A stretch of DNA of 50,944 bases. Source: a virus. Positions 2,198 through 22,068 of this stretch are shown piece after piece. The stretch lies in IMG/VR virus record IMGVR_UViG_3300030060_005619, positions 1 to 50,944 of that record. One strand, written 5' to 3'. The translations under genes were made by a program, and so were the position numbers. The notes under the pieces were generated by a model. It saw only the letters and a program-made list of their open reading frames with translations, ran no database searches and was not told where the DNA came from. Each line of letters opens with the position of its first letter. Position 1 is the stretch's first letter.

Positions 2198-2369
2198 CGT
2201 CAAAAACCTCCGCCACAATGTCCACGGTGTACGTGTCGTCGCCCGTTTGGTCTTCATCCCAGACCCTATCTTCAATAGCCGCAAGCTTTGCTTCCTCAAT
2301 GCTTTGGGCTTCATCGTCCTCAATCCAAAAGACGTTTCGCTGAATCACTTCCACTTTATATCTAGGCAT
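2190..2369 (-). CDS. small acidic protein (59 aa)
   Basis: Reads MPRYKVEVIQRN and ends VDIVAEVFDDA. It begins 3 bp after the stop of the 110-aa gene, with GGGGGAGC as ribosome binding site, and its stop overlaps the start of the alpha-CTD fusion gene by 8 bp. The pattern of one beta strand, a helix rich in Ala/Glu, then another strand resembles the middle segment of the fusion protein and small phage proteins of the DpnD/PcfM type, but this is only a fold-level impression. Function unknown. Confidence 0.65.
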   Translation of the reverse strand: MPRYKVEVIQRNVFWIEDDEAQSIEEAKLAAIEDRVWDEDQTGDDTYTVDIVAEVFDDA

Positions 2370-3192: not shown

Positions 3193-3208
3193 TGTTCCAC
3201 GTGGAACA
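3193..3208. promoter_or_regulatory. parS: parS-like ParB-binding palindrome, copy 1
   Basis: TGTTCCACGTGGAACA is a perfect 16-bp palindrome. It equals the bacterial parS consensus TGTTTCACGTGAAACA with one compensated change at positions 5/12, the variant I associate with Pseudomonas chromosomes. It lies in the 192-bp non-coding gap between the 88-aa and 113-aa genes, 32 bp upstream of the latter's start. An identical copy occurs at 14292-14307. In bacteria ParB loads on such sites, binds CTP and spreads; no parA or parB gene is visible in this window. Confidence 0.7.
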
Positions 3209-3240
3209 ACCCAGTTCTTTTACAACTTGGAGATAGTGAT

Positions 3241-3582
3241 ATGCGAAAAGGCGAATCAATCGTCTATCGGTGGTGGGTCTGGTCCGACTGCAAGGATCAC
3301 AATGATCGCTCTGGCAGTTTCGACGAGCACGATACCTACGCGGAGGCTCACTTCTACTGCAACTACGCAGAGGGGGAGTTCATCGAGCTAGTCCGATCTT
3401 ACTGGGGCGATGAGGATGACGGTCTACTCGACCGCGACCACGCCACAGTCGAAGACGGCAAGCTTCCAGAGACTTATGACAATGGAAGCCAACCAATAGC
3501 GAAGAAGCTACACGCAGAGGTAAAAGCGGTTCACAAAGAGGTGCTCGTGCCTCTTGGTGCGGGCTTTTACCTCAAACTTTAA
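3241..3582 (+). CDS. hypothetical acidic protein (113 aa)
   Basis: No recognised family. Trp/Asp/Tyr-rich N-terminal half (YRWWVWSDCKDH), acidic middle, basic C-terminus ending GAGFYLKL. The ATG at 3241 is chosen because TTGGAGATAGTGAT sits immediately upstream, matching the leader of other early genes; in-frame upstream codons would run through the parS site. A rho-independent terminator follows at once. Confidence 0.6.
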   Translation: MRKGESIVYRWWVWSDCKDHNDRSGSFDEHDTYAEAHFYCNYAEGEFIELVRSYWGDEDDGLLDRDHATVEDGKLPETYDNGSQPIAKKLHAEVKAVHKEVLVPLGAGFYLKL

Positions 3583-3589
3583 AACCAAC

Positions 3590-3610
3590 AGGGGCTTCGG
3601 CCCCTTTCTT
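3590..3610 (+). terminator. rho-independent terminator
   Basis: GGGGC stem, TTCG tetraloop, GCCCC stem, followed by TTTCTT. Ends the transcript of the 113-aa gene; the next gene's ribosome binding site follows directly. Confidence 0.8.
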
Positions 3611-3627
3611 ATCAACGGAGAAAGTGA

Positions 3628-3837
3628 ATGAAATTATATTTAGCGCGTGTTACGTGCAATGAGGGTGGACACCACGTAGTTCAAGTTTTTAAAACGGCAA
3701 AAGAGCGCAAAAGATACATCGACGCCGTCCTAGACCAAGACGGTTCTTTTGAGATCGACAAACATACCTGCGAGTTCCCCGCGACCAAAGAAGGGATCGT
3801 CGCATTTTTTAATCGGAACGCGTGGCACATGCAGTAG
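3628..3837 (+). CDS. small hypothetical protein (69 aa)
   Basis: Compact alpha/beta-looking protein (MKLYLARVTCNEGG, then a Lys/Arg helix, then FFNRNAWHM) of no recognised family. Start supported by GGAGAAAGTGA directly before the ATG. It lies 11 bp upstream of the 64-aa Cys-containing gene, probably in one transcript. Confidence 0.55.
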   Translation: MKLYLARVTCNEGGHHVVQVFKTAKERKRYIDAVLDQDGSFEIDKHTCEFPATKEGIVAFFNRNAWHMQ

Positions 3838-3847
3838 GGGGCCGACA

Positions 3848-4042
3848 ATGACCGGATTCAGTTTTGAAAAGCCGAGCGGCAAAACAAGCGTTGAACGCCT
3901 CCACGCTCAGATGGACGGGCGGATGGCCGCGCTTTGCGGCAATGGCAGCGACAGGGTGATCCCCAGAGCGAAATTTCTGGAAAGCGATAGCCCTGATCGG
4001 TGCAAGCGTTGCGTTCAGAAGTTAGAGGGGGACGGGGAATAG
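3848..4042 (+). CDS. small protein with possible zinc site (64 aa)
   Basis: Starts at ATG 3848 with GGGGG 6 bp upstream. Contains ALCG and a CKRC pair (RCKRCVQKLE) plus one His upstream, which could form a small zinc knuckle. Such one-site Cys proteins are common in phage early regions. Function unknown. Confidence 0.5.
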   Translation: MTGFSFEKPSGKTSVERLHAQMDGRMAALCGNGSDRVIPRAKFLESDSPDRCKRCVQKLEGDGE

Positions 4043-4086
4043 GGCAAAGAACGCGGTTCGCGGCGCTTGGTGCAAAAAACGCGCTT

Positions 4087-4316
4087 CTATATAGTACTTT
4101 TCCCAGAAAAATATTTTTTGAAAAAACAATTTCAAAAAAGGCGGTACAGGCGGTACAGCGGTACAGCCCTTATAATACGTGGCCTGTAGCCGTACCGGCA
4201 GTGTACCACCGTGATTCACGCCGTTACGGGCTGAGGCAAAAAAGCCGTAACTACATAGCACTTTTCAGCAAAAAATTTTTTTCTTTTTTTTTGTTTTGGG
4301 AAAAAGTTCTATATAG
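4087..4316. other. AT-rich control region with iterons and an imperfect inverted repeat (candidate origin or operator)
   Basis: Part of the 354-bp gene-free gap 4043-4396. Outer arms CTATATAGTACTTTTCCC (4087-4104) and the inverse complement of CTATATAGAACTTTTTCCC (4298-4316) flank the region. Inside are three tandem GCGGTACAG/CGGTACAG units (4141-4166) abutting a perfect TATAAT (4171-4176). Two oppositely oriented GTACC elements follow (4192 and 4203), then long A and T tracts. Each arm begins a similar tract (ACTTTT then A-run), repeated again at 4255. Iterons plus AT-rich tracts are typical of replication origins; iterons at a -10 box are typical of repressor or activator control. The sequence cannot decide between them. 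Confidence 0.45.
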
Positions 4317-4340
4317 GAACCCGAATTAAGGAATGGGGTA

Positions 4341-4369
4341 TTGACAGTGCGCGCCAGCGTGTTGTTAGG
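4341..4369 (+). promoter_or_regulatory. candidate promoter with consensus -35 box
   Basis: Perfect TTGACA at 4341-4346, with a weak -10 (TGTTAG) after about 16-17 bp, 28 bp upstream of the ATG of the 119-aa gene. The -10 match is poor, so this is tentative. Confidence 0.3.
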
Positions 4370-4396
4370 CTGCGAGAAATCGCATAGGTGCTTGGC

Positions 4397-4756
4397 ATGT
4401 TTTTATTGTTCAAAAGACACTTTCAACTAGGGCAGCGTGAAAAAGAGCGTAAGGCGGCGCTAGCAGAAAAAAATCGTCGCTACTTAAAACAAGGGCAGGC
4501 TTTCGTCAATCATTGGAACGCTGTAGCCCAAACCAACGCAAGGCGGCAAGCCGAGTATGAAAAAACTTATGGGCAAGCTCATACTGCTTTCCTCGCCGCG
4601 ATGCGCTTACAAGCCAGAAAAAAAAGAATTGGGACCTTGTTTGCTGATCTAGAGTATGCGACATTGCGCGTACACCTAAACAAGGATGCGAATGATGAAA
4701 CTACTGAACACGACCGCCAGCAACACGAAGATCAAAAAAACGCAGAACAAACCTAA
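4397..4756 (+). CDS. basic helical hypothetical protein (119 aa)
   Basis: Lys/Arg/Gln/Ala-rich helical protein with a short hydrophobic start (MFLLFKRHF). The ATG at 4397 has AGGTG six bases upstream; a GTG three codons earlier is possible. The C-terminal 20 residues overlap the next gene in another frame. No family recognised; the composition suggests a coiled coil or nucleic-acid-binding helix. Confidence 0.5.
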   Translation: MFLLFKRHFQLGQREKERKAALAEKNRRYLKQGQAFVNHWNAVAQTNARRQAEYEKTYGQAHTAFLAAMRLQARKKRIGTLFADLEYATLRVHLNKDANDETTEHDRQQHEDQKNAEQT

Positions 4757-5414
4757 CAATTACTTCGGTAAACCGGTGCGTATGGCTAGCCTCAGCATGC
4801 TACCGGACCGCATTATCTGCGCCGGTAGTAAGGCCGCCGGATGCATGGATTTTTGCCTCAAAGAATCTGGACGCGCCCAATACAATCCTGATATCAACAT
4901 AGCCCGTCAAAAGAAAACCGATTATTGGCATTCCGACCAAGCCGGATTTCTCGCCCAACTCACGCGCGAATTATCAAACTTTCAAAAAAATGTCTGCGAA
5001 AGGCAAAACGTGCAAGGCGTGGTACGGCTTAACGTGCTATCCGATATTCCATTTGAAGATCACAACATACCGCAGCAATTTCCTGACCTGTTCTTTTACG
5101 ACTATTCAAAACGAGCAAACCGGCTAGGCAAAACGCCAGACAACTATCGCCTGATGTTCTCTTACAGCGACCGCCCTCAATACCGTAACCAAGTAGCCGC
5201 CGCGCTGCCGACGGGTGTCCCGATTGCAGTAGTTTTTAAAAATTCTATGCCGAGTGAATACCTTGGCCGCCGCGTTATTGATGGTGACTTGTCTGATCTT
5301 GATAACGTCATGGCCGGTCCGGTAGTGGTCGGGCTTACTGCCAAAGGTCCAGCACTGCACGATGATTCGGGTTTTGTTGTGGACGGGAATATGATCGTGA
5401 GGTTAGCGGCGTGA
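4692..5414 (+). CDS. GP88/DUF7227-like phage protein (240 aa)
   Basis: The features I associate with the mycobacteriophage gp88-like family are present in order. A Cys pair in GSKAAGCMDFCLKESGRAQY (about residues 46-65) is followed by an AR-x-KKTDYW segment and AGFLAQLTRELSNF. Next come VVRLNVLSDIPFED, FPDLFFYDYSKR, NYRLMFSYSD and a final GPALHDDSGFV. Family function is unknown; members are found in phages and plasmids. AAGG lies six bases before the ATG at 4692 (an in-frame ATG at 4686 is also possible). The start overlaps the end of the 119-aa gene by 65 bp. Confidence 0.7.
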   Translation: MMKLLNTTASNTKIKKTQNKPNNYFGKPVRMASLSMLPDRIICAGSKAAGCMDFCLKESGRAQYNPDINIARQKKTDYWHSDQAGFLAQLTRELSNFQKNVCERQNVQGVVRLNVLSDIPFEDHNIPQQFPDLFFYDYSKRANRLGKTPDNYRLMFSYSDRPQYRNQVAAALPTGVPIAVVFKNSMPSEYLGRRVIDGDLSDLDNVMAGPVVVGLTAKGPALHDDSGFVVDGNMIVRLAA

Positions 5415-5608
5415 TGCGTATGCGAATGCAAATGGCGCAGGTTATTTATTTAAAATCAGACGACTCTGATAAGGGCATGCGTCAGCAACAACGAATGGCG
5501 CAAAAGCTTGGTGATAAATCCTACCTAACGTCGGAATCCAAAACGGCGCTGATCGATATGCAACTCGAAATCAACAAAGCCGACCGGCTGCTGAAAACAA
5601 ACTTTTAA
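5414..5608 (+). CDS. small hypothetical protein (64 aa)
   Basis: Begins at the ATG overlapping the stop of the GP88-like gene (GTGATG), so it is probably translationally coupled. Met/Arg-rich start, then a mixed helical region (RQQQRMAQKLG) and a C-terminal NKADRLLKTNF. No recognised family. Confidence 0.45.
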   Translation: MRMRMQMAQVIYLKSDDSDKGMRQQQRMAQKLGDKSYLTSESKTALIDMQLEINKADRLLKTNF

Positions 5609-5698
5609 AAAAGCTTGCGCGGACGCACCAATATGCGATTATGCGCATGCGGCAAACATTTAGGGCGCACCGCACGCCCCACAATTGGAAAAGTGATT

Positions 5699-6832
5699 AT
5701 GCTAAATACCACGTTAGAGAACGCGAACGGAACGCTGGAAAACATCCTTCGACAGATCAGCGAGCAAGCAAGCCGGAAAGCCGACTACATTGCGCCGACC
5801 GATCAGTTGCAGGTGCAAACCCGCGACGGAAATACCAACATTGTGCTCGAGGCGAATGGCGGCATGCCGACTCAGCAATTCACCACAAACGAGATTGCAT
5901 TCCAGCAACTGGCTAGCAACTGCGATATCGACGTGAGGACCGCCCGCCGGTTACGTGATAACGACAACTATGCGCCGGAATTCGATAACCTAATTAACAA
6001 AATTCTGGTAAATGAACCGAAAAGCAAGATGCTCCGCACGTTTGATGGTGAGCAGCCGCTAGTGCGCGCCATCGTCAGCGATAAATTTAAGACGTTCGAC
6101 AATGTTGATCTGGTAGAAGCCGCGCTTCCGCAGTTAATGGAATCAGAAGCCGATTGGCAGATAGTGAACGGCACAGTCACTGACCATCGCCTGTATATGC
6201 GCCTGAAATCTGAGAACCAAGTAGCCGAGCCAGCCATAGGCGACGCCATGGCGAACGGGATTATGCTGCGAAATTCTGAGGTTGGAATGGGTAGCGTCGA
6301 GGTGATGCAGATGGTCTGGACCCTATGGTGCCTAAACGGATGCAGTAGCGAAAAGAAAAGCCGCCACACTCACGTCACCAGCGCACGCGGGACCGAAGAC
6401 TGGTCTCTACTGACTAGCGAAGCAAAAGACGCTGACAATCACGCGCTGCAATTGAAACTGCGCGACGTTGTCGCCGGTTATACTTCCCGCGACAGTTTTG
6501 ACGAAGCCGTCGAAATGTTCCGGATCGCGCACGGGGACATTGTCCCGAATGGTCTGGCGAATCCCGCCGCCGTCGTGGATAGCGTCGTCAAAGTGTTAAG
6601 TCTCCCGAAAAAATCGTCGGGGGATATAATGGCCGGATTGATGCAAACGATCCAGCAGAGCGGATACCGTGACAAGCCTATCAGCCGTGCAACATTAGTT
6701 AACGCGGTTACCGCCGTCGCGCACACTGCCGACGCGGATAGCGTCGACGATTGGTACGCGAACGGACGGGCCGTGCTAGATCTGCCGCGTAACCAATGGG
6801 AAACCATCGCGCAGACGCCACTAGCTGCCTGA
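5699..6832 (+). CDS. DUF932-like phage/plasmid protein (377 aa)
   Basis: Matches the DUF932 family layout. It has an N-terminal segment with the sequence IAFQQLASNCDIDVRTARRL, an LVRAIVSDKFKTFDN strand-helix core, and a central RLYMRL followed by GDAMANGIMLRNSEVGMGSV. A WCLNGC segment and a helical C-terminal domain follow. DUF932 proteins are widespread on plasmids and phages and of unknown biochemical function. The ATG at 5699 is chosen because TTGGAAAAGTGATT lies just upstream; the in-frame upstream extension reads a Cys/Arg-rich stretch unlike the family. A terminator follows 24 bp after the stop. Confidence 0.75.
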   Translation: MLNTTLENANGTLENILRQISEQASRKADYIAPTDQLQVQTRDGNTNIVLEANGGMPTQQFTTNEIAFQQLASNCDIDVRTARRLRDNDNYAPEFDNLINKILVNEPKSKMLRTFDGEQPLVRAIVSDKFKTFDNVDLVEAALPQLMESEADWQIVNGTVTDHRLYMRLKSENQVAEPAIGDAMANGIMLRNSEVGMGSVEVMQMVWTLWCLNGCSSEKKSRHTHVTSARGTEDWSLLTSEAKDADNHALQLKLRDVVAGYTSRDSFDEAVEMFRIAHGDIVPNGLANPAAVVDSVVKVLSLPKKSSGDIMAGLMQTIQQSGYRDKPISRATLVNAVTAVAHTADADSVDDWYANGRAVLDLPRNQWETIAQTPLAA

Positions 6833-6855
6833 TCAGGACCACCCACAAGCCCAAC

Positions 6856-6884
6856 AAGCCCGCCGCCGTGCGGGCTTTTCTTTT
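6856..6884 (+). terminator. rho-independent terminator
   Basis: AAGCCCGC / GCGGGCTT 8-bp stem, loop CGCCGT, then TTCTTTT. Same stem is reused at 7238 and 8238. Ends the DUF932-like transcript and abuts the TATACT promoter of the next gene. Confidence 0.85.
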
Positions 6885-6888
6885 GCAT

Positions 6889-6926
6889 GGGATTAATCTT
6901 ATACTGAGCGCACGCCATACCGGCGC
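6889..6926 (+). promoter_or_regulatory. repeated phage promoter/leader cassette, copy 1
   Basis: GGGATTAATCTTATACT (TATACT at 6900-6905), then CACGCC ATACC GGCGCA, a hairpin with a 4-bp CGCC/GGCG stem in the predicted leader, then TTGGAG. Highly similar to the cassettes at 7271 and 7868. There is no good -35 hexamer; the terminator T-tract lies in that position. Confidence 0.65.
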
Positions 6927-6945
6927 AGCATTGGAGTAATGAAAC

Positions 6946-7218
6946 GTGAACATAATGAAAAAAGAAAAGTTGTACCCGATTTTAGAAATTGAAACTGGTC
7001 GAATATTTTATTGGTCAATCGATCAAATTTTAGAAGAGATCAACAGAGACCACTCTGACGATTACACGCCATATGACGAGAATGATTGGCTGGATGGCTG
7101 GCGAGAATGGGTGGATGATCCGAAGGCTCAGGAAGGGGAGGCGTTCCTTAGGCTCCTAAGTGACGTTCATTGGTGCCGACAAGGTTCTGCGGGGCGCGAC
7201 GGCTACGCTCATACGTGA
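6946..7218 (+). CDS. small acidic hypothetical protein (90 aa)
   Basis: Acidic and Trp-rich (NDWLDGWREWVDDP). The start could be the GTG at 6946 or the ATG at 6955; the Shine-Dalgarno TTGGAG at 6930 favours the former. First gene downstream of cassette copy 1 and followed by its own terminator, so it is a single-gene transcription unit. No family recognised; small size and acidity fit a host-takeover protein (inference). Confidence 0.5.
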   Translation: MNIMKKEKLYPILEIETGRIFYWSIDQILEEINRDHSDDYTPYDENDWLDGWREWVDDPKAQEGEAFLRLLSDVHWCRQGSAGRDGYAHT

Positions 7219-7237
7219 TCGATCCCCCGACCCGAAC

Positions 7238-7264
7238 AAGCCCGCCGCCGTGCGGGCTTTTTTA
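7238..7264 (+). terminator. rho-independent terminator
   Basis: AAGCCCGC / GCGGGCTT stem with loop CGCCGT, then TTTTT. Nearly identical to the one at 6856, including the flanking AACAAGCCCGCCGCCGTGCG. Confidence 0.85.
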
Positions 7265-7270
7265 TTTGTG

Positions 7271-7312
7271 GGATTAGTCTTATACTCCCCGAACGCCACA
7301 AACCGTTGGCGC
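7271..7312 (+). promoter_or_regulatory. repeated phage promoter/leader cassette, copy 2
   Basis: GGGATTAGTCTTATACT (TATACT at 7281-7286), then AACGCCA ... TGGCGCA with a 5-bp stem (7294-7298 with 7307-7311), then TTGGAG. Same order as copy 1. Confidence 0.65.
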
Positions 7313-7331
7313 AATATTGGAGCGACGATAT

Positions 7332-7814
7332 ATGAATACCGATCACAAACTTGATACTGGCACGGCGCAAAATTTAAACTCATTACTTGAGAATAACGCC
7401 ACCAATAACATCGGAGACACGACGAAAGAAAACGTCTTCATGCCCGATTACCTAGACCGACTCGCCGCCGATCACGTGGAAGCCGGACTAGAGGCGACTG
7501 CTGCGGATATCAAAGCTGCCGCCTCTGAAATACGCAGACTCGAAAACCGAGCCACCTATTTAAAAGTAGCGGAAGAACTCGCCGAGCAAAAAATCGGCAA
7601 CTTGGCCGAGGCGCTGATAGCAGTGATGGAGACTGAACTGGATCAAAAAATCGAGGAAATTCTCGATAACAAAATCAGCGATGCGTTAGACGATTACGAC
7701 CCGACCGACCATCCCGACTTTGGTGATGCCGTTGATCGTCAAGTTCAAAATTCCAGCGTCGAGGACACGGTTCGCGATCTACTCGACAACGCGTCGGTTA
7801 GCATCAGCATCTAA
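7332..7814 (+). CDS. acidic coiled-coil hypothetical protein (160 aa)
   Basis: Very acidic, mostly helical (residues about 40-120 likely coiled coil, including ATAADIKAAASEIRRLENRA), ending in a short Ser/Ile tail. The start ATG at 7332 has TTGGAG upstream. Own promoter cassette and own terminator. Acidic helical proteins of this kind can be DNA mimics or host-factor inhibitors, but nothing here proves that. Confidence 0.6.
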   Translation: MNTDHKLDTGTAQNLNSLLENNATNNIGDTTKENVFMPDYLDRLAADHVEAGLEATAADIKAAASEIRRLENRATYLKVAEELAEQKIGNLAEALIAVMETELDQKIEEILDNKISDALDDYDPTDHPDFGDAVDRQVQNSSVEDTVRDLLDNASVSISI

Positions 7815-7833
7815 CCCCCAACAGCTCGCAACT

Positions 7834-7859
7834 AACCCCGCCAAGCGCGGGGTTTTTTT
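7834..7859 (+). terminator. rho-independent terminator
   Basis: AACCCCGC / GCGGGGTT stem with a short loop followed by TTTTTTT; different stem sequence from its neighbours but same position between gene and cassette. Confidence 0.85.
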
Positions 7860-7867
7860 ATGTCTGC

Positions 7868-7908
7868 GATAAAGCTTATACTTTCCGCACGCCGAGACGT
7901 TCGGCGCA
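7868..7908 (+). promoter_or_regulatory. repeated phage promoter/leader cassette, copy 3
   Basis: GATAAAGCTTATACT (TATACT at 7877-7882), then CACGCCGA GACGT TCGGCGCA, a 6-bp hairpin (7890-7895 with 7901-7906), then CGGAAAGAG as ribosome binding site. The upstream GGGATTA part is diverged; the -10 and the hairpin flanks ACGCC/GGCGCA are conserved. Confidence 0.6.
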
Positions 7909-7928
7909 ATCAATCGGAAAGAGTGAAA

Positions 7929-8219
7929 ATGGAAAACTTTAGAAAATATTTGGCAGACAATGGAATCGCTGGTTCGCGCACTTATTCGCTGGCTCAAGCT
8001 TTTAACCAAATGCATCGCGCATATTGCGAACTCGATTATCAAAACCGATATGCTTTTGATCTGATCTTTGGCCCTGACATTCGAGAAGGGCTAATCAAGT
8101 ACGCCGATCATTGTCCTTATGCGAACGCCGATCTTCGAGAGCACGTGCAAAAGTCTGTCGACGTTGAGATTGTTCGCGATGCGGATGTAGAGGATATCAA
8201 CGGCGTGATTCATTCTTAG
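7929..8219 (+). CDS. small hypothetical protein (96 aa)
   Basis: Starts at ATG 7929 after CGGAAAGAGTGAAA. Aromatic-rich middle (YCELDYQNRYAFDLIF) and acidic C-terminus; no recognised family. Third single-gene unit behind a TATACT cassette, ended by the terminator at 8238. Confidence 0.55.
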   Translation: MENFRKYLADNGIAGSRTYSLAQAFNQMHRAYCELDYQNRYAFDLIFGPDIREGLIKYADHCPYANADLREHVQKSVDVEIVRDADVEDINGVIHS

Positions 8220-8237
8220 CGAATTACCGGTTCGATC

Positions 8238-8265
8238 AAGCCCGCCAATGTGCGGGCTTTTTTTT
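8238..8265 (+). terminator. rho-independent terminator
   Basis: AAGCCCGC / GCGGGCTT stem with loop CAATGT, followed by eight T. Marks the end of the early region; a GC-rich gene-free block begins right after. Confidence 0.85.
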
Positions 8266-8280
8266 GGATTTTTTCCCAGT

Positions 8281-8570
8281 GCAACATGCGGCGCCCCGCC
8301 GCCCCCTTCCCTTGCAAAACGTACCGCGCACCGCGAGCCGTGCGCCGTGGGACATTTGCACCTGGTCAAAGAGATATCGCATACGATCCGCGCACCGTGG
8401 ACCGCAGCAACTGCGCATCGATCCGCGCGCCGCGATCCGCCGCCGCCGGTCGGCGATCCGCGCGCCATGGGCTAGGGTCCCCCCGCCAATAAAGGTTATC
8501 CGCGCAGCAAAAGACGCCGCCCGCGCTCCGCGCGCCGCGCGCCGTGGGCACGCGCAGCCAGCCGCGTACT
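8281..8570. repeat. GC-rich non-coding block with imperfect GATCCGCGC repeats (candidate packaging site)
   Basis: Most of the 457-bp gap between the 96-aa gene and terS. The core GATCCGCGC(A/G)CC(G/A)TGG or close relatives occur near 8333, 8385, 8419, 8454 and 8526. The block is far richer in G+C and CpG than the flanking coding sequence and is bounded by an AT-rich stretch at 8600-8670. Open frames through it are present on both strands but have Arg/Pro/Ala-only composition, so they are not genes. Its place directly upstream of the small terminase gene is where many phages keep cos or pac. The motif GTGGGCACGCG recurs at 14-24, at the very start of the window. Confidence 0.5.
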
Positions 8571-8635
8571 TGTGCAGGTTTCACGCAAACAATACGGCTC
8601 TGAAACAAATCGCTTTCACTGAATAAAAAAAGTGC

Positions 8636-8641
8636 TATATT
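8636..8641 (+). promoter_or_regulatory. weak candidate late promoter -10 box
   Basis: TATATT within AGTGCTATATTTCGC, 36 bp before the terS start, in the AT-rich stretch following the GC-rich block. No convincing -35 box. Offered only because a promoter for the late operon is expected here. Confidence 0.25.
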
Positions 8642-8676
8642 TCGCAAAATTAAGCGGTTTTTATGGGATTTGACGC

Positions 8677-9231
8677 ATGGCCGAAGTGCAGAAAAAAATA
8701 GAAACTCGGGGGCGCCCCAAGCTTTCTGAAGATACAAGATTGACCGGCAAGCAACTCAAGTTTGTCGAACTGGTCGCCACACGTGAGGGACAGGACACGT
8801 TACGAAATCTGGCCGTCGAAGCGGGATTCAGTATCAACGGCGCTCATACACGTGCCTACGAGATGCTCAACCCTAGAAAATCACCTCACATCGTAAAAGC
8901 ACTCAAGGCACGACGGGCCGAGCTTGCTGAAAAGTACGAAGTGAGCTACGCCCGACACATCCGCGACTTACAGCATATCCGTGATCAAGCAATCGCGGCG
9001 GGGGCATACTCTGCTGCTGTTCAGGCAGAAAAAGCGCGCGGCTTGGCCCAAGGCGATATTTACGTGAACAAGTCTGAGGTCCGCCATGGATCGATTGATC
9101 AGATGAGTAAAGCCGAGGTCAAGAAGGCTTTGGACGAACTGAAGCGCCAGCTTGGCGAGAAGGTGATCGATGTCGAACCAGACAGAGTCGAGCTTTTGGA
9201 GGCAGATCAAGACGGGGCTATCCAGCACTGA
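8677..9231 (+). CDS. terS: terminase small subunit (184 aa)
   Basis: Residues about 25-90 match the Terminase_2-type small subunit: LTGKQLKFVELV, then NLAVEAGFSINGAHTRAYEM as helix-turn-helix, then a basic linker. The C-terminal half is helical and suited to oligomerisation. TerS recognises the packaging site on concatemeric DNA and regulates TerL. Its gene sits right after the GC-rich repeat block and upstream of terL, the canonical order. A small nuclease gene is inserted between them and overlaps its 3' end by 62 bp. Confidence 0.85.
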   Translation: MAEVQKKIETRGRPKLSEDTRLTGKQLKFVELVATREGQDTLRNLAVEAGFSINGAHTRAYEMLNPRKSPHIVKALKARRAELAEKYEVSYARHIRDLQHIRDQAIAAGAYSAAVQAEKARGLAQGDIYVNKSEVRHGSIDQMSKAEVKKALDELKRQLGEKVIDVEPDRVELLEADQDGAIQH

Positions 9232-9574
9232 TGTGGTTTGCACGCGGATCGAGAACAGTAGCACGCAGGGCATACCGGACTTGTTGTTACTCGACCGACA
9301 AAGCCAGTTTCACCTAATCGAACTCAAAGTAGCGAAGGGCAATAAAGTTTTGCTCAGTCCGCATCAGGTTTCGTTTGCAACGCGGCACAAGGACGCTCGC
9401 TTGTGGATCGTGGTCAAGAAGGATGACACCGTGCATTTGTACCGCGCGGACCAAGCGATAGACGTTTTTGAAGACGGCCTACGGGTCGCGGCCCACGGCA
9501 CGTTCACCAAGCCCGTGAACTGGTCAGATTTCCTCACCACCATTGAAACGCATAGGGTCCCCCTTGAACCTTGA
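9170..9574 (+). CDS. VRR-NUC / PD-(D/E)XK-like nuclease (134 aa)
   Basis: Shows the small VRR-NUC-type core: GIPDLLLLD with Asp37, then FHLIELK with Glu51-x-Lys53, then Gln66 in SPHQVSF, followed by strand segments LWIVVKKDDTVHLYR. These are the catalytic residues expected of the PD-(D/E)XK fold. Phage members are thought to act as Holliday-junction or branch nucleases clearing DNA before packaging. It is embedded between terS and terL, overlapping both, which supports a packaging-linked role (inference). Confidence 0.75.
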   Translation: MSNQTESSFWRQIKTGLSSTDVVCTRIENSSTQGIPDLLLLDRQSQFHLIELKVAKGNKVLLSPHQVSFATRHKDARLWIVVKKDDTVHLYRADQAIDVFEDGLRVAAHGTFTKPVNWSDFLTTIETHRVPLEP

Positions 9575-11036
9575 CACTCAAACAGAAGCGGACATTCAGG
9601 AACTTCGATTACAGCTTCGTTTGAAGCAATTAGAAAAGGTAGAAACTTGTAAAGCTGAATTTTTACCATTTGTCCGATCTATGTGGCCGGAGTTCATTGC
9701 GGGTCGGCATCATTATTTGATTGCGGAGAAGATGGAGCAGATTGCTTCGGGCAAGTTGAAGCGGTTGATCATCAACATGCCGCCGCGTCATACGAAGAGT
9801 GAGTTTGCTTCTTATTTGTTTCCGGCGTGGATGATTGGTCGTAACCCGTCGATGAAGATCATTCAGGCGACGCACACCACCGAACTGGCGGTAAATTTTG
9901 GCCGTAAGGTCAAGAATCTGCTCGAAACGGACGAATACAAGGAGATTTTTGACGATACGAAGCTATCTGCGGACAGTAAGGCGTCTGGCCGGTGGGACAC
10001 AAAGTCGGGTGGTATGTATTACGCGGTGGGTGTGGGGTCGAACTTGGCGGGGCGTGGTGGTGATTTGATCATTATCGACGATCCGCACTCGGAGCAGACG
10101 GCGATGTCGGCGAGTGGTTTCGAGAATGCGTGGGAGTGGTACACGGCGGGTCCCCGACAACGTCTCCAGCCGGGTGGTGCTATCGTTTTGGTGCAAACTC
10201 GGTGGTCAGAAAAAGACATGACGGGCAATTTGGTGCGTCAAATGACTAAGGACCCCTTTGCAGATCAGTGGGAAGTCCTTGAATTACCTGCAATTTTCGA
10301 GTCTGGTGAGCCATGTTGGCCTGAATTTTGGAAGAAGGAAGAGTTGGAGTCGGTAAAAGCGTCGATTCCTGCGTATCAGTGGAACGCGCAGTACCAACAG
10401 AACCCTACCTCCGAGACTTTGGCCATTTTGAAGCGCGAATGGTGGAATGTTTGGGAAAAAGACACGATTCCGAACCTTCAATACGTGATCCAGAGTTACG
10501 ATACGGCGTTCAGTAAGCGAGAAACCGCTGACTACAGTGCGATTACGACTTGGGGCGTGTTTTATCCCGAAGAAATTGGTGGTCCGGCGCATTTAATCTT
10601 GTTGGATGCCAAGAAAGGGCGGTGGGACTTCCCTGAACTGAAGGAAATCGCGCTAGAGCACTACAAATTTTGGGAACCAGAGACGGTTATTGTGGAAGCC
10701 AAGGCGTCAGGGACCCCTCTGACTCAGGAATTGCGTCAATTGGGCATTCCGGTGGTCAATTTTACCCCAAGCCGTGGTAATGACAAGCTTTCTAGGGTAC
10801 ACAGTATATCTCCGCTATTTGAAGCTGGTATGATCTGGGCACCTGATGAGTCTTGGGCGCACGAAGTGGTGGAAGAATGCGCTGCTTTTCCTAACGGGAC
10901 TCACGACGACTTGGTGGACAGCACCACACAGGCGCTGATGCGCTATCGGCAGGGTAACTTTGTGCAGTTGCCTACTGACGATTGGGAAGACAGTGACGAA
11001 TCGGTGAGTATCACGGCTGGGGCATACTATGGCTGA
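9564..11036 (+). CDS. terL: terminase large subunit (490 aa)
   Basis: Packaging ATPase/nuclease. Adenine and Walker A region INMPPRHTKSE (about residues 71-81), Walker B LIIIDDPH (Asp172/Asp173), coupling segment LVQTRW, then an RNase H-like nuclease domain with Asp at SYDTAFSK (about 313) and DDLVDS (about 448-449). Length is typical for the family. A TTG start at 9564 with AGGG upstream is preferred, giving an 11-bp overlap with the nuclease gene; an in-frame TTG at 9543 is possible. The last codons overlap the start of the polyvalent protein gene by 8 bp. Confidence 0.93.
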   Translation: MNLDTQTEADIQELRLQLRLKQLEKVETCKAEFLPFVRSMWPEFIAGRHHYLIAEKMEQIASGKLKRLIINMPPRHTKSEFASYLFPAWMIGRNPSMKIIQATHTTELAVNFGRKVKNLLETDEYKEIFDDTKLSADSKASGRWDTKSGGMYYAVGVGSNLAGRGGDLIIIDDPHSEQTAMSASGFENAWEWYTAGPRQRLQPGGAIVLVQTRWSEKDMTGNLVRQMTKDPFADQWEVLELPAIFESGEPCWPEFWKKEELESVKASIPAYQWNAQYQQNPTSETLAILKREWWNVWEKDTIPNLQYVIQSYDTAFSKRETADYSAITTWGVFYPEEIGGPAHLILLDAKKGRWDFPELKEIALEHYKFWEPETVIVEAKASGTPLTQELRQLGIPVVNFTPSRGNDKLSRVHSISPLFEAGMIWAPDESWAHEVVEECAAFPNGTHDDLVDSTTQALMRYRQGNFVQLPTDDWEDSDESVSITAGAYYG

Positions 11037-14000
11037 ACGCAAGTTTGAATTTGGACGAATTCTTCCAGCAACGGAAGAAGAGCGTTTGCCAATTGAAAGT
11101 TTTGACCCAGACATTCAAGCACTGCTTGCAAGCGGTGACGCAATCCAAGGTTTTCCTGCGTCGATGGTATCAGACCGGGTTGGTCTGCCCACGGCTCTGG
11201 CCCGTGGCGCTGCGGACCTTTTCGACACGAGCCGCCGCGAAGTTTTGATTCCTGCGGCCCGTGAGCTAGGCGACGCGATTGAATCATACAACCCTGAGAC
11301 ATTTGGCTTTGAAGAGCGAATAGAAGAACGCCTTCGTCCGGGCGTCTTTATGCGTCCAGAGGAGGCAACTTCGGGGCCAGAAGCTCGCGCCAATATGCCC
11401 TTGGCCCGTGGTGTTTCCCAAGCCGTTGATTTTGCTGGAGATTTGATCAGATCTCCGGAGACACGAGCGCAGGCAATAGAAACGCTGCGCACGGTGCCTG
11501 AAACGTTAGCAGAACAAACCAAGCTTTCTGGTATTGCAAGCTTACGCGGTGAGCGTGTTATTGACCCCGAAACCGGCATGACGGGCATGCCTTATGACGC
11601 CTTTTTGTCGGCAACGACGCCTTTGGCTGTTGGGCGTGCGGTTAGCGACGTGCCCAGAGCCAGCTTTGGTATTTTTGGCAGTGGCGGCGGCAAGTCTGGC
11701 AAGCAAGCAGAAGAAACTGTCGCTATGTTGGAAGAAGCGGGTCTTGACCCTGCGGAAGGTTGGGAAAGACAAGCTGGTGCTAATACCTACCAAGCCTATC
11801 GCTCCAGCTTAGACGGCAAGGTTCGCTATGAAATACCCATGCAAAACGCCAAGTTTTCGTCAGTGGTGCGTGTAACCGAAGACCCCGACGTAGAAATTGG
11901 TAAAATTTTAGACCCTGAAACCCGAACTGAGCAACGTTTGCTTAACCTGCAACGATTGCGTATTGAAAAAAATCAGTTTGACGATCAAGAGTATATAAAA
12001 CTACCCGGATATTCGGACTACAACGAAAAAGAACTCAATACTTACGGCTTCACAAAAAGACCTGAACTAGCTGGCAAAGACGGGTTGCAACTCTTCCCAT
12101 CCCCGGCTTTAGATCAAATTTTAGATTTCCCTGAACTTTTTGAAGAATACCCACAACTCAAAAACATCCGGGTTGGACCGACGAGTCCACTGCAAATTTT
12201 TGTACGCGGGTCGTACAACCCGGAAGAAAAAGTGATCCAGCTTGCCCGTCAAAAAAATACGCCCGACGGGCGCAGGCAGATGATGAGTACGTTGATGCAC
12301 GAAGTGCAGCACGCCATACAAGACATTGAAGGGACTTACGGTGGCGCTAATGTGGGCATGTTTCAGCCTTTTGACTTTGACAAAAGACGTAGCGTAAATC
12401 GCGAGGCGCTGTCGGATTTAGAAAAAACTTTGAAGCAAGATTTGCTCAGTGTGGAGTTTGACCTGCCAGAAAAACCCGGAATAAAAGATTCTATGAAAGC
12501 TTTTATTCGGCGCGGATTAAGCCTAGCACCCCTGCAAAAACTACAAGATTTGCCAGTGCCAGAAGATTTACGTCTTACCCAAAACAGAATTGTGAGTTAT
12601 TTCAAGTTGCGGGCCGAAGAAGAAAATGATTTAGCACGCGGGGTTTTATCGCAAAAAGAAATTCAGCGCCAAACGCGAGCAGAAAAATTACAAAGGCTCG
12701 AACCGGAAGTGTTTTTTGCCGACATGCCAAAAGACTTTGTTCCTAGAGAAGGGATTTTGCAGCAACTTCAAAAACGGCGAGAGCTAATATTATCTGACCC
12801 TGCAAATTATGGTGGATCTGATAAAGAATTAATTCGCCTAAACCGCGCCTTGAGAAAGTTGGGAGTAAAGAATTCAGAGCAAATTACAGAACAGTTGAGT
12901 GGTGCGTTTGATGATCGCATTCAACAACTACGTCCGCTGATCAAAGAGCAAGCAGAACTCCGAGAGGTAGAAAGCCAAGCTTATCAAATGTATGCCGGTA
13001 ATCCGGGCGAAGTCGAGGCCCGCAACACTCAGCTAAGATTCGAGGGGGTATTGGGTAGAGACAATTTCGGGTCCAACCGCACCGTTTACCGGGACGCAGA
13101 AGGCAAAGCGAGGTCGTCTGATCGCACGATTACACCCGAAGAACTTCAGCGCACTTTCCCTGAAGAAACTCAACAAATGGTGTTACCTGAAGGCGGGCTT
13201 GTTTATTCGCTCGCCGAAGGCCGTAAAGGCCAGCCGTCTTTTTCAATGGACCCTCCCGGTAACGGTGGCCTCGAAGCAAAAAAAGCAAAACTACAGCAAC
13301 AGCGCAGCACATATGACAACCGTAATGCGCAGCTTTTTGAGAGCACCGCCAAGCCTTTGGAACAATCCACCGTGGATCGACTCAAAGCAGAAAGGGCTAA
13401 AGCTGGGCGTGAAGTAGTTCGTTTACAGCACGAAATCGACTTGGAGGAAAATGAGCCTAATCTCCCTGATAGCATCATCACAAGGGATTCGTCGGGTCAA
13501 TTGTTGCCTCGTAATGATTTTTACCAAGCAAACGAATACGCGTTTCACGGCACGCGCGGAGCCGCTGATCGAATCATAGAAGACGGCGGTGTGCATATGA
13601 ACACCGACGAACCGGCTTTCTTTATGACGGAGAGTCCTGCGGAGGCAATGACTTACGGGGCTGGCGGTCTTGGTGACTTGGGCACCGTAATACCAATGCG
13701 TATTGATACCAGAGGTTTCGCAGAAATCGACTACGGTGGTAGAAGCTACGGAGAACTGGATGAGGGCGGGGTAGTTTCTGTTGCTTTCCCAAGAAAGACG
13801 ACTTTTTACGGTTTTGAGGGCACGGATTTCGAAGTAGAGGTCGATTTCGATGATCTGGTCACTGTTCGCGTGGATGGCGGGAAACCGACTAAAGTTTCAG
13901 AAGATCTTCTGGAGCAATATCACCCCATGGGATCTGCTCTTCTGAACGAAGAAGCATTCCTAAACGCCGTTAAAGATGCCGGTGCTCCCGGCGCAAGGTT

Positions 14001-15594
14001 GATGTCGATACGTGATTTGGACCCAACCGGGGCTATGATGTTGCGTCGAACAACGAAGCTCAACATCCCAGAAGAAAACGAAATTCTTACTGTCTTCGAT
14101 AAATCAAGGCAGCGTTTGGCAAAAGGTAACCCAGCAAAAGCAGACGACTTTGGACAAATCGGCATTGCTCGCAATCCTTTCAAGGGGTTTGCAGTCGGTG
14201 GTATGGTGAACAATATGAGACGAAGAAACATCAGCGGTCTAACCAACTTGTTCAGCAAGTACAATGCGTCGGGACCGCTTGCCGGGGCTGGTGTTCCACG
14301 TGGAACAATGCCTGTGCAGATGAATCAGGGCGGTGATCCAGACTTTGGTGGTCGCCCTGACTATTCGCAGTTTGATCCTAGCGATTATGTCCGGTCACAA
14401 GATCCTCGTAGGCAAGTAGCGCCCGAAAACGTTGGTTTTATGAACCCCGGTTTTACTTTCGGCACTCAGCAAGACGACATTCTAGACGCGATTTATCGGT
14501 CGCAAACCACGGAAGCGCAGCCTTTTTCGCCTCCCTTGTCGAGCGCACCGATGTCCGTGCAACAACAAACTGCTCCGTTTACACCCTCTAGTGGAATTGT
14601 TGCGGGAGGACCGGCACCGGGCGAAGTAAAGGTGGTTGACACGGGTGACGCTTACACCGGGCAAGCTCAACTACCGCAACCCGATCCTTTGCCGCCACCT
14701 CCCCCTCCACCGGTAGTGGATGTCGTGCAACCTCCGAGCGAGCAGGTAGCCCCGCCGGCCATGTTGCCTCCCGCTCCAGATTTACCTCCGGCAGTGTATC
14801 AGCCACCGCAACCAACCGAGGTCACGGTGCCCACAGAACCGATGTTTACGCCTCCGCCTGTAGCGGCGACACCCGAGCTAATTGACCCAGTAATGTTGTC
14901 CGGTCAAACGGTTGATTTTGGTATCGCGGATCAAATTACGCCGCAAATCGGGGGCTATGCCACTACACAGGGTATGAACATTGCGGCTACGGGTGATCCG
15001 TTTGCTGACGCGGTTGAAGGTCAATATCAGATGCCAATCTATCGGCCTCAAGCTGCCGGTGCGATGCCGTTTTTGAGTTTAGATTTTGCACGGCCCAGCC
15101 AGCCTTCTGATGCACCGCCTCCTCCACAGTCTGAGGATTATTCTACGGGTAGCTATGGCCGCTTAGAATTTGCCGAGGCGCTTGCAAATTATGAGCGCAT
15201 GTATGGACCGGTTGAGGACTATCAAGCGCCGGATACTGACGCGGTCATGGAGGACACCAGTACCACTGGGTCTGCGGCCAGTTCCGTTCCGTCTGGTACA
15301 CGATTTTATCCGGAGCCTCCGCCAGTGAAAGGCAGCGGCGGCATTGGCGCAACCGCTAAGTTTCTAGCCGAAAAACTCAACTGGGAAGCAAAATACGGCC
15401 CCATAGAGGACTACTACGCTGCGCAAGAAGCGGCACGAAACGAGGATATTAATGCATACCTCAGTCGTCAGGGTGAAGAGGCCATAGCGGCTCAATATGG
15501 TATGACCGTTGAACAACTTAGAGACGTTAACGCGCGTCGGAGAGAGCAGGGGTTACCTCCTCTTGGTGATATAAACCTCCCCGATTATCGGTGA
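11029..15594 (+). CDS. large polyvalent protein with LPD23-like/HExxH and ADP-ribosyltransferase-like domains (1521 aa)
   Basis: Residues about 235-445 match the phage polyvalent-protein domain I know as LPD23. It contains KVRYEIP, DFPELFEEYPQLKNIRV, then TLMHEVQHAIQ with HEVQH at 424-428, a zinc-metallopeptidase-like motif. Around 838-900, AFHGTRGAADRIIEDGGVH followed by FFMTESPAEAMTYG resembles an ADP-ribosyltransferase of the ART-PolyVal type (His840). Residues about 1215-1280 are Pro-rich, and the C-terminal part carries two copies of a Y-GP-EDY motif. Polyvalent proteins are packaged or injected multi-domain effectors. The position directly between terL and portal suggests a virion-associated protein (inference). 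A perfect parS site lies inside the gene, encoding residues VPRGT at 1089-1093. Confidence 0.75.
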   Translation: MAERKFEFGRILPATEEERLPIESFDPDIQALLASGDAIQGFPASMVSDRVGLPTALARGAADLFDTSRREVLIPAARELGDAIESYNPETFGFEERIEERLRPGVFMRPEEATSGPEARANMPLARGVSQAVDFAGDLIRSPETRAQAIETLRTVPETLAEQTKLSGIASLRGERVIDPETGMTGMPYDAFLSATTPLAVGRAVSDVPRASFGIFGSGGGKSGKQAEETVAMLEEAGLDPAEGWERQAGANTYQAYRSSLDGKVRYEIPMQNAKFSSVVRVTEDPDVEIGKILDPETRTEQRLLNLQRLRIEKNQFDDQEYIKLPGYSDYNEKELNTYGFTKRPELAGKDGLQLFPSPALDQILDFPELFEEYPQLKNIRVGPTSPLQIFVRGSYNPEEKVIQLARQKNTPDGRRQMMSTLMHEVQHAIQDIEGTYGGANVGMFQPFDFDKRRSVNREALSDLEKTLKQDLLSVEFDLPEKPGIKDSMKAFIRRGLSLAPLQKLQDLPVPEDLRLTQNRIVSYFKLRAEEENDLARGVLSQKEIQRQTRAEKLQRLEPEVFFADMPKDFVPREGILQQLQKRRELILSDPANYGGSDKELIRLNRALRKLGVKNSEQITEQLSGAFDDRIQQLRPLIKEQAELREVESQAYQMYAGNPGEVEARNTQLRFEGVLGRDNFGSNRTVYRDAEGKARSSDRTITPEELQRTFPEETQQMVLPEGGLVYSLAEGRKGQPSFSMDPPGNGGLEAKKAKLQQQRSTYDNRNAQLFESTAKPLEQSTVDRLKAERAKAGREVVRLQHEIDLEENEPNLPDSIITRDSSGQLLPRNDFYQANEYAFHGTRGAADRIIEDGGVHMNTDEPAFFMTESPAEAMTYGAGGLGDLGTVIPMRIDTRGFAEIDYGGRSYGELDEGGVVSVAFPRKTTFYGFEGTDFEVEVDFDDLVTVRVDGGKPTKVSEDLLEQYHPMGSALLNEEAFLNAVKDAGAPGARLMSIRDLDPTGAMMLRRTTKLNIPEENEILTVFDKSRQRLAKGNPAKADDFGQIGIARNPFKGFAVGGMVNNMRRRNISGLTNLFSKYNASGPLAGAGVPRGTMPVQMNQGGDPDFGGRPDYSQFDPSDYVRSQDPRRQVAPENVGFMNPGFTFGTQQDDILDAIYRSQTTEAQPFSPPLSSAPMSVQQQTAPFTPSSGIVAGGPAPGEVKVVDTGDAYTGQAQLPQPDPLPPPPPPPVVDVVQPPSEQVAPPAMLPPAPDLPPAVYQPPQPTEVTVPTEPMFTPPPVAATPELIDPVMLSGQTVDFGIADQITPQIGGYATTQGMNIAATGDPFADAVEGQYQMPIYRPQAAGAMPFLSLDFARPSQPSDAPPPPQSEDYSTGSYGRLEFAEALANYERMYGPVEDYQAPDTDAVMEDTSTTGSAASSVPSGTRFYPEPPPVKGSGGIGATAKFLAEKLNWEAKYGPIEDYYAAQEAARNEDINAYLSRQGEEAIAAQYGMTVEQLRDVNARRREQGLPPLGDINLPDYR
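14292..14307. promoter_or_regulatory. parS: parS-like ParB-binding palindrome, copy 2 (inside a coding sequence)
   Basis: Exact second copy of TGTTCCACGTGGAACA, 11.1 kb from copy 1, within the polyvalent protein gene (codons GTT CCA CGT GGA ACA). Each of these codons has synonyms that would break the palindrome, so exact conservation suggests selection on the DNA. In many bacteria parS sites are also found inside genes. Confidence 0.65.
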
Positions 15595-15616: not shown

Positions 15617-18058
15617 ATGGCAAATGGCGATAGACCACCTGTCTCGTTGATGGACAGAGAAGGTATGAACCTCGACGAAGAAAACGTGCTAGCTGTCGAG
15701 GTAGAGGCGCTGCCAAGCGGCCTTGAAACCAATTCGGCGATGAGCATTGAAGGTGTTGAGATCACGCAGGACGAAGACGGTGGTGTCACTTTTGACTTTG
15801 ACCCGCTGCGTAACAAAGATCGTGAAGACGACTTTTTCGACAATCTTGCGGAGTTCATGGACGAATCAGAGTTGGCTGAAGTAGCCAACGATCTGATGGA
15901 CCAATACAGCGCCAATAGGGCCTCCAGACACGACTGGGAAGAGGCTTATTCCGATGGCTTGGAACTACTTGGGTTCAACTACGAAGAGCGTACAGAGCCT
16001 TTTAGGGGCGCTACCGGCGTCACTCACCCCTTGCTTGCTGAAGCGGCAGTGCAATTCCAAGCACAAGCCTTTAACGAACTATTGCCTGCGGACGGTCCTG
16101 TAAGAACAGCGGTGCTCGGCACGCCGACCACTGCAAAGGCAGAACAAGCCAGTCGAGTAAAAAACTTTATGAATTACTACATCACTAACGTGATGGAGGA
16201 ATACACGCCAGAATTTGATCAGATGCTGTTTAATTTGCCTTTGGCGGGCAGCACGTTCAAAAAAGTGTACTTCGACGACTCTCTGGGCCGTCCTGTCAGC
16301 AAGTTTGTACCAGCAGAGCACTTGGTCGTGCCTTACGAGACATCGGACTTACAAACATGCCCGTGCATCACGCATGTCGTGCGGATATCCATGAACGACC
16401 TGCGCAAACAGCAAGTCGGCGGCTTCTATCGTGACGTACCTGTACTGCCTTCTCAGCCCAACACCGACAGTATTTCCCAAGAAACGGACTACATCGACGG
16501 CATGAGTGCGTCAAATATCGATTACGACTGCACTTTGCTTGAGTTTCATGCGGATCTCGACTTGCCCGGATACGAGAACAAAGACGAAGAAGGTGAAGAA
16601 ACTGGCATCAAAGTGCCCTATATCGTCACAATCAGCGAAGAAAACAGCAAAGTATTGTCGATTCGACGTAACTACGAGGAGCAAGACCCTCTCACGAACA
16701 AGATCCAATACTTCGTGCATTACAAGTTTTTGCCCGGATTTGGCTTCTACGGCCTTGGTTTGATTCATACCATAGGGGGCTTGTCACGCACCGCGACTGC
16801 GGCACTGCGTCAATTGATCGATGCAGGAACACTTTCTAACCTGCCTGCGGGCTTCAAGGCTCGCGGCCTGCGGATCAGGGACGACGATTCACCTCTACAA
16901 CCCGGTGAATTTAGAGACGTTGACGCGCCCGGAGGACAGATTAGAGACAGTTTGATGCCTCTGCCTTTCAAAGGGCCAGACGGCACGCTTTTCCAGCTAC
17001 TGGGCTTTGTGGTGGACGCAGGGCAACGGTTTGCCACGATTACCGACATGAAAGTAGGCGATGCCAATCCCAACGCGGCTGTCGGCACAACTATCGCGAT
17101 GATTGAGCAAGGCACTCGTGTAATGAGCGCCGTGCATAAGCGATTGCACTACGCCATGAAGATTGAATTCAAGATCTTGGCACGTGTCATGTCCGAGAGC
17201 TTGCCTCCGGTTTACCCGTATGAGGTGCCGGGCGCAGAGTCAACGGTGAAAGCTGACGACTTTGATGAAAGGGTAGACGTGCTTCCGGTATCTGACCCGA
17301 ATATTTTTTCTCAAAGTCAGCGTATTGCCTTGGCTCAAACTGAGCTACAGATGGCTATGCAGGCTCCTGAGATACACAACATCCCAGAAGTGTATCGCCG
17401 AGTGTACGACGCTTTGGGAGTAAAGAACGCCGACATGATATTGCGAGCAGATACACCCGGCGACATCGCGCCGAAAGACCCAGCGCAAGAAAACATGGAT
17501 GCCTTGAATAATGTTGCCTTGCAGGCGTTCCGTGGCCAAAACCACATGGCTCACATACAAGCGCACCTTATTTTCGTAACGGGCGGCATAGCCTCCTCGC
17601 TACCGCAAGTCGTTGCCGCTATTCAGAAACACATCTTGAATCACGTGCAATTGATGGCGGAGGAGCAAGCAGAGCAGGTGTTTATGCAGCAAAATCCTAA
17701 CGTTGCGATGGTCAATCCTGCGGATAACGAGCAGTACCAGTCCTTAGTCGCGCAAAATGTAGCTACAATCATGCAGCAAGTGGTTCAGCTTGGTCAGCAG
17801 GTGCAACAAGCTGGCCAGCCGCAACAAGGACCAGATCCTTTGATACAACTCAAGCAGCAAGAGTTGCAATTGAAGTCTCAGCAAGAGCAGAACGACATGG
17901 CGATGGAGCAGCAAGAACTGGAGCTAGATCGCCAGAAACTTGCGCAGCGCGAAGCACAGTTCCAACAACGCTTGCAAAGCCAAGAAAACCAAACCGCTGC
18001 TCGCATCGAAGCAGGTATGCAGCGTGAACTATTGAAACAACAACGAGGTGATGTATGA
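15617..18058 (+). CDS. portal protein (813 aa)
   Basis: Large podovirus-type portal. Typical portal features: DQYSANRASRHDWEEAYSDG near residue 95, the PFRGATGVTHPLLAEAAVQF segment (about 122-141), FKKVYFDD and VPAEHLVVPY in the wing, a long central stem/clip region (RQLIDAGTLSNLPAGF), and a Gln/Glu-rich coiled-coil C-terminus (about 700-813). It forms the dodecameric channel at the capsid vertex through which DNA enters and leaves. AGGA precedes the ATG. Its stop overlaps the next start as ATGA. Confidence 0.9.
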   Translation: MANGDRPPVSLMDREGMNLDEENVLAVEVEALPSGLETNSAMSIEGVEITQDEDGGVTFDFDPLRNKDREDDFFDNLAEFMDESELAEVANDLMDQYSANRASRHDWEEAYSDGLELLGFNYEERTEPFRGATGVTHPLLAEAAVQFQAQAFNELLPADGPVRTAVLGTPTTAKAEQASRVKNFMNYYITNVMEEYTPEFDQMLFNLPLAGSTFKKVYFDDSLGRPVSKFVPAEHLVVPYETSDLQTCPCITHVVRISMNDLRKQQVGGFYRDVPVLPSQPNTDSISQETDYIDGMSASNIDYDCTLLEFHADLDLPGYENKDEEGEETGIKVPYIVTISEENSKVLSIRRNYEEQDPLTNKIQYFVHYKFLPGFGFYGLGLIHTIGGLSRTATAALRQLIDAGTLSNLPAGFKARGLRIRDDDSPLQPGEFRDVDAPGGQIRDSLMPLPFKGPDGTLFQLLGFVVDAGQRFATITDMKVGDANPNAAVGTTIAMIEQGTRVMSAVHKRLHYAMKIEFKILARVMSESLPPVYPYEVPGAESTVKADDFDERVDVLPVSDPNIFSQSQRIALAQTELQMAMQAPEIHNIPEVYRRVYDALGVKNADMILRADTPGDIAPKDPAQENMDALNNVALQAFRGQNHMAHIQAHLIFVTGGIASSLPQVVAAIQKHILNHVQLMAEEQAEQVFMQQNPNVAMVNPADNEQYQSLVAQNVATIMQQVVQLGQQVQQAGQPQQGPDPLIQLKQQELQLKSQQEQNDMAMEQQELELDRQKLAQREAQFQQRLQSQENQTAARIEAGMQRELLKQQRGDV

Positions 18059-22027: not shown

Positions 22028-22068
22028 TATATTCAACTCATCCCTGACAGACGCATACCGCGTCTGAC
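22028..22068 (+). promoter_or_regulatory. promoter and leader hairpin downstream of the capsid terminator
   Basis: TATATT (22028-22033) after TGTG, then a 7-bp hairpin CAGACGC ATACC GCGTCTG (22048-22066), then ACAGGAG. Same terminator, -10 box, leader hairpin order as at 6889, 7271 and 7868, and the loop ATACC is identical to that of copy 1. Confidence 0.55.

Follow-up and report, generated by a model that had tools for sequence, protein, structure and literature searches.

We consider it probable that parS sites of the bacterial chromosomal type are widespread cis elements that lytic phages devoid of ParB have acquired convergently. Such phages would have from one to a few copies, in the variant of the host itself, and upon infection their DNA would be handled, or the segregation of the host disturbed, by the chromosomal ParABS/SMC machinery. 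The marine phage analyzed here is represented by a stretch of 50,944 nucleotides (IMG/VR virus record IMGVR_UViG_3300030060_005619; hereafter the window). A preliminary description made from its sequence had pointed out two identical perfect 16-bp palindromes, TGTTCCACGTGGAACA, one intergenic and the other within a gene, both of which are exact at the positions given in Table 1. That observation was understated: within the phage group the site reappears at unrelated positions, and many unrelated phages have it as well.

Identity of the phage

Judging from its genes, the window represents part of the genome of a podovirus akin to HTVC023P-type pelagiphages. Its nearest TerL and capsid matches were Phage DSL-LC04, 023Pt_psg01 and the pelagiphages HTVC023P and HTVC027P, with a capsid identity of 69-72% to the HTVC023P-type isolates and DSL-LC04. 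The gene order (TerS, TerL, large mosaic ORF, portal, scaffold-like protein, and capsid) contains the succession of terL, large ORF(s), portal and capsid that, together with capsid/terminase homology, characterizes this type. No named close DNA relatives were found in the phage collection, either for the window or for two other parS-bearing loci (L044 and L014). The genome is probably incomplete, since no end repeats were detected in the window, its 50.9 kb compare with 57-65 kb in relatives, and no polymerase gene was found in it.

As had been noticed before, neither parA/parB nor an integrase is visible: the ParB_N domain (PF02195) was absent from the window even at E<=1, its relatives also have no parB, and no integrase was present among the roughly 25 larger window ORFs scanned. 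A dedicated phage-plasmid state, which was one of the roles initially suggested, found no support, and HTVC027P of this group has been described as obligately lytic with a latent period of 18 h (PMC12753301).

Several other features were seen in the window. The 334-aa protein encoded at 1319-2323 (minus strand) combines DUF6891, an RNA polymerase alpha C-terminal domain and sigma-70 region 4, and is likely a phage transcription-takeover protein of unusual make-up. In-frame tandem repeats of 33 bp at 23898-24095 encode Lys/Gly/Met-rich units, and three similar terminator-like hairpins (GCCCGC...GCGGGC, then a T run) are located within 1.4 kb at 6842-6884, 7224-7266, and 8224-8266.

Table 1. Main features of the window
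Feature	Position	Strand	Remarks
parS site 1, TGTTCCACGTGGAACA	3193..3208	.	Intergenic; the start codon of ORF 3241-3582 follows 32 nt downstream; exact match
Small ORF	3241..3582	+	113 aa; 3' of site 1; kept in L183-L187 with 74-80% identity
TerL (terminase large subunit)	9543..11036	+	PF17289, phrog_38; sister lineages have parS about 20-60 nt upstream
1521-aa ORF	11029..15594	+	terL-portal interval; holds site 2; mosaic, weak phrog_13543 match
parS site 2, TGTTCCACGTGGAACA	14292..14307	.	Inside ORF 11029-15594; exact match
Portal protein	15617..18058	+	phrog_1216; sister lineages have parS just before/after portal
Major capsid protein	21066..21971	+	phrog_371; many relatives have parS just after the capsid gene
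Mu-gpT-DE RNA (RF03012)	22042-22094	+	Directly after the capsid gene

The two parS sites and their conservation

Both window sites are perfect 16-bp palindromes fitting the chromosomal-type parS TGTTNCACGTGNAACA. The expected count of TGTTCCACGTGGAACA in the 50,944-nt window is 1.1e-5, and the probability of two or more copies is about 6e-11, in agreement with the earlier claim that two exact copies are beyond chance. It is the only 16-base perfect palindrome present twice in the window (another, unrelated 16-bp palindrome occurs as a single copy at 37086), and the next-best parS match, at 45319, has three mismatches, which is at chance level. The preliminary description was right in calling the site a bacterial parS and wrong in assuming one compensated change, as it matches the chromosomal parS2 and parS3 of P. 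aeruginosa in every base (PMC4368675) and is also the parS of P. putida (PMC7022226).

Relatives keep the palindrome at both places, so the outcome that the preliminary description had named as a refutation, its absence from both places in related phages, was not observed. Site 1 was exact in all four relatives spanning it (L183-L186), in each of which the first base of the site lies 48 nt before the start of the homologous downstream gene; in a fifth relative of this region (L187), the contig begins after the site. For site 2, all 16 bases were kept in 15 of 15 viral-contig relatives spanning it, with varying flanking codons; L191, which was found by the parS scan, was excluded from these fifteen. 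Read in frame, site 2 corresponds to GTT CCA CGT GGA ACA (V-P-R-G-T), and these codons are invariant, compared with 3 of 19 other conserved degenerate columns nearby (hypergeometric p = 0.0013, with rows that are not independent). This codon invariance by itself would be modest evidence, the peptide there being highly conserved. In one relative lineage, there is an extra codon directly 5' of site 2 and the site is still intact. Together with the repeated gain elsewhere described below, the conservation in 4/4 and 15/15 relatives indicates that parS is kept as a DNA site under selection.

Site 2 also accompanies a conserved 40-aa module found in otherwise unrelated protein contexts, which would be compatible with neutral sites, either left over or hitchhiking on such modules as these recombine. 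The exact preservation of the intergenic site, the repeated gain at unrelated places and the excess in unrelated phages all speak against hitchhiking, which we regard as highly improbable.

Repeated gain within the phage group

A search by DNA pattern, supplemented with relatives found by protein search, yielded 83 parS-bearing contigs with at least some similarity to window genes, most of which clearly belong to this phage group. In sister lineages, parS is located 20-60 nt upstream of terL, accompanied at a distance of 24 nt by another parS of the TTTC type; further places include the inside of the large ORF, positions just before or after the portal gene, the vicinity of the start of the scaffold-like gene, and the position just after the capsid gene, and relatives with the TTTC variant have additional ones. 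Since sites occur at quite different places in sister lineages, parS must have been gained repeatedly, and the simplest reading of these sequences is a large number of independent acquisitions in which position was hardly constrained.

The region behind the capsid gene offers a separate observation. In some relatives (L075 and L091), parS lies inside the match to the Mu-gpT-DE RNA, where, by reading, the palindrome has replaced the apical stem; in others (L046 and L197), it directly follows a terminator and precedes this RNA by about 20 nt.

A sample chosen independently of parS was also analyzed. Among 80 loci picked by capsid similarity alone (850 kb), 11 exact parS sites were found vs 0.003 expected, and nine control patterns gave none. 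Six contigs of this set are at least 38 kb long, and five of them have between one and three exact sites.

It is conceivable that ParB spreading from these sites regulates nearby genes by delaying or tuning early or late promoters. Regulation of promoters near parS by ParB spreading has reportedly been seen in P. aeruginosa, and several phage sites are found in promoter or terminator regions, such as site 1 before a start codon and others before terL or after the capsid gene. A promoter scan around site 1 revealed nothing exceeding shuffled sequences. Unlike an operator, the sites shift among the early region, gene interiors and late genes and have no fixed target gene, and such a regulatory role is considered improbable.

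Distribution of parS in IMG/VR phages

The 16-mer scan and the scan for the AA/TT-flanked 18-mer together identified at least 207 loci with TGTTCCACGTGGAACA in IMG/VR; all counts in this collection of contigs, which are fragments, are lower bounds (at least 120 each for the 16-mer, the AA/TT-flanked 18-mer, and the TT variant). Two control palindromes of the same dinucleotide composition, the number used collection-wide, had 1 and 26 matches, and the latter were distributed over 13 contexts, with 12 of the sites in one family. When relatives fetched by protein search are included, the CC sites have 165 different flanking contexts and form 121 clusters at the DNA level; the TT sites occupy 121 flanking contexts. 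The genes bearing parS include those for terminase, portal, DNA polymerase, primase-helicase, head-tail adaptor, and baseplate. Chance as a source of the excess is ruled out by the control palindromes, and host contamination by the location of sites in core phage genes on contigs without parB. On the other hand, parS is not universal in phages, because no exact site was found in 13 well-known laboratory phages, the closest being one one-mismatch site in phiKZ.

Among 50 parS-bearing contigs, about three quarters have a single site and the rest two to five, even with one mismatch allowed. Loci selected for the CC form carried 12 further exact parS variants vs 0 for eight controls, and contigs with several sites mostly have one variant (16 pure CC, 17 pure TT, and 8 CC+TT). 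Clusters of sites were also seen: a 28.9-kb viral contig without ParB_N (L106) has five exact parS over about 6 kb (4324-10457), and two other viral contigs (L394 and L421) each have five parS of the TTTC type in a stretch of about 1 kb, which could be host flank or a phage-plasmid with its own parB.

The palindrome might in principle act as an RNA hairpin or terminator element rather than as a DNA site. A 6-bp stem with an ACGU loop is possible, and the location of the palindrome within the Mu-gpT-DE RNA match in L075 and L091, in the apical stem by reading, would suit such a role. However, only the ACGT loop is in excess, other loops between the same arms being at chance level, and mixed half-sites, as they occur in host parS, would break the RNA stem. 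In addition, a control palindrome sharing the CCACGTGG core had one match, which argues against the hairpin and also rules out that an E-box-like CACGTG core alone accounts for the excess. The hairpin is extremely improbable and was rejected on the basis of the loop counts.

A further alternative is an ordinary phage partition system whose ParB-like protein is encoded by the phage itself, perhaps in the part that the window lacks. The window is indeed incomplete, and two relatives without parS (contigs G058 and G063) have weak ParB_N-like stretches, below the curated cut-off, in ORFs of 972 aa (L498, 1130-4045) and 595 aa (L499, 2977-4761). In these two capsid relatives (n = 2), such ORFs are possibly an alternative to parS. 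Nevertheless, the ParB_N domain was found in 0 of the 50 parS-bearing contigs, several of which are 54-350 kb long, and was also absent from the near-complete parS-bearing relatives G053, G057, and G060. Phage partition systems, moreover, normally use their own site type, and the variants here are those of hosts. A ParB of the phage's own is therefore judged very improbable.

parS variant and host class

The variant of parS differed between bacterial classes, as counted by reading tables of sites. Among gammaproteobacterial sites, 28 of 49 were TGTTCCACGTGGAACA, and alphaproteobacterial whole genomes had TGTTTCACGTGAAACA or mixed sites, with no TGTTCCACGTGGAACA (TTCC/GGAA) among the matches listed. 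The CC form was also present in SAR86, Oceanicoccus, and one of two Verrucomicrobia genomes, and the TT form in Pelagibacteraceae, Maricaulis, and Rhodobacteraceae genomes. On the phage side, the SAR11 phage HTVC027P has an intergenic site near terS, CGTTTCACGTGAAACA, with a TTTC core and a single mismatch, located at the outermost base. Four other named relatives have no parS even when two mismatches are allowed, and HTVC023P has only imperfect ones. The best explanation of these sequences is that the parS variant follows the host class, the phage-host match resting on one isolate, HTVC027P.

HTVC023P and HTVC027P share capsid/terminase families and gene order with the window phage, and HTVC027P has its near-perfect parS. 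In contrast to these pelagiphages, the window has a GC content of 50% and a parS of the gamma type, which makes SAR11 an improbable host; we infer that the phage infects a gammaproteobacterium or some other bacterium whose parS is of the CC type. A capsid search of genome contigs returned only MAG/SAG contigs of mixed taxa and no firm host.

Proposed mechanism

Host ParB would very probably bind the phage parS, given its identity with chromosomal sites. The explanation that we favor overall, and regard as fairly probable, is that a nucleation site for host ParB makes the phage DNA a client of the host ParABS/SMC system. Upon infection, host ParB, a CTP-dependent sliding clamp, would load at the phage parS and spread over neighbouring phage DNA, and the coated genome would thereby acquire the molecular identity of the host origin region. 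Phage genomes could then be positioned and spread on the nucleoid by ParA, be served by ParB-loaded SMC, and be kept in both daughters if a slow-growing host divides during a long infection. Accumulating phage copies would at the same time compete with the host origin for ParB. Under this mechanism, it would hardly matter where in the genome the site lies, which may be why lineages gained parS at many different places.

Both outcomes, partition of the element itself and disturbance of the host, are plausible because each has a precedent. The two parS mimics of SGI1 use the ParABS of the IncC plasmid, partition SGI1 and destabilise the helper (PMC10954446), and in Caulobacter, multi-copy parS plasmids are harmful or lethal, being segregated in place of the chromosome (PMC5815017).

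In its pure form, the disturbance would be a decoy: replicated phage parS would draw ParB (and ParA/SMC) away from the host origin, segregation and division would stop, and the gain would be host arrest rather than movement of phage DNA. The 1-3 sites per roughly 60 kb of phage genome are far denser than the 1-2 per few Mb in most host genomes sampled, their position in the phage genome is free, and the harm done by multicopy parS in Caulobacter (PMC5815017) would also fit. On the other hand, a decoy would profit from many sites, yet about three quarters of the contigs have one, and ParB is not essential in several gammaproteobacteria (PMC7022226). We consider the pure decoy rather unlikely, and a role in centromere function or SMC loading fits somewhat better because each genome has one site or a few, at freely varying positions. 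As to the main benefit, we would guess, tentatively, that it may well be the use of ParABS/SMC for the phage's own DNA; titration of ParB as the main benefit appears less likely, which is likewise a guess. Of the roles initially suggested, partition or positioning by means of host ParB is still plausible, as is competition for this protein. That the host silences phage DNA through these sites is unlikely, since phages gain and keep them.

Comparison with known systems

The window sites have the same 16 bp as gammaproteobacterial chromosomal parS bound by ParB (P. aeruginosa parS2/parS3 and P. putida), the CC/GG variant being typical of this class. They differ from chromosomal parS in being phage-borne and far from any parAB or oriC, with one of them inside a coding gene. 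Phage-plasmids such as P1, N15, Mic1, and extrachromosomal mycobacterial prophages also have a ParB-type centromere on a phage genome; however, they use their own ParA/ParB and their own site type (PMC7156551; PMC7157519), whereas the window phage has no parB and a site of the host's type. The phage-encoded ParB of an autonomous P1/N15-type partition system was detected neither in the window, which is incomplete (E<=1), nor in the 50 parS-bearing contigs.

The closer likeness is to SGI1, a mobile element with two parS copies and no ParB of its own that uses the partition proteins of another replicon (PMC10954446), and the window phage likewise has parS copies without its own ParB. SGI1 is a maintained island and its target is the ParABS of a helper plasmid, whereas the putative target of the window phage is chromosomal ParB during an apparently lytic infection, and the phage parS phenomenon is spread over many phage groups. 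No report on host-type parS in ParB-less phages was found in the mainly open-access journal articles covered. Mimicry of parS by a mobile element is already known, and we regard host-type parS in ParB-less phages as a new form of it.

Implications

If this reading is true, lytic phages, among them relatives of the HTVC023P type, tap the centromere machinery of their hosts through a 16-bp site alone. HTVC023P-type phages account for about 7.6% of viromic reads (PMC12753301). The finding would raise questions on the location of phage DNA, the division of infected slow-growing cells and host arrest, and the parS variant may serve as a cheap clue to the host class of uncultured phages.
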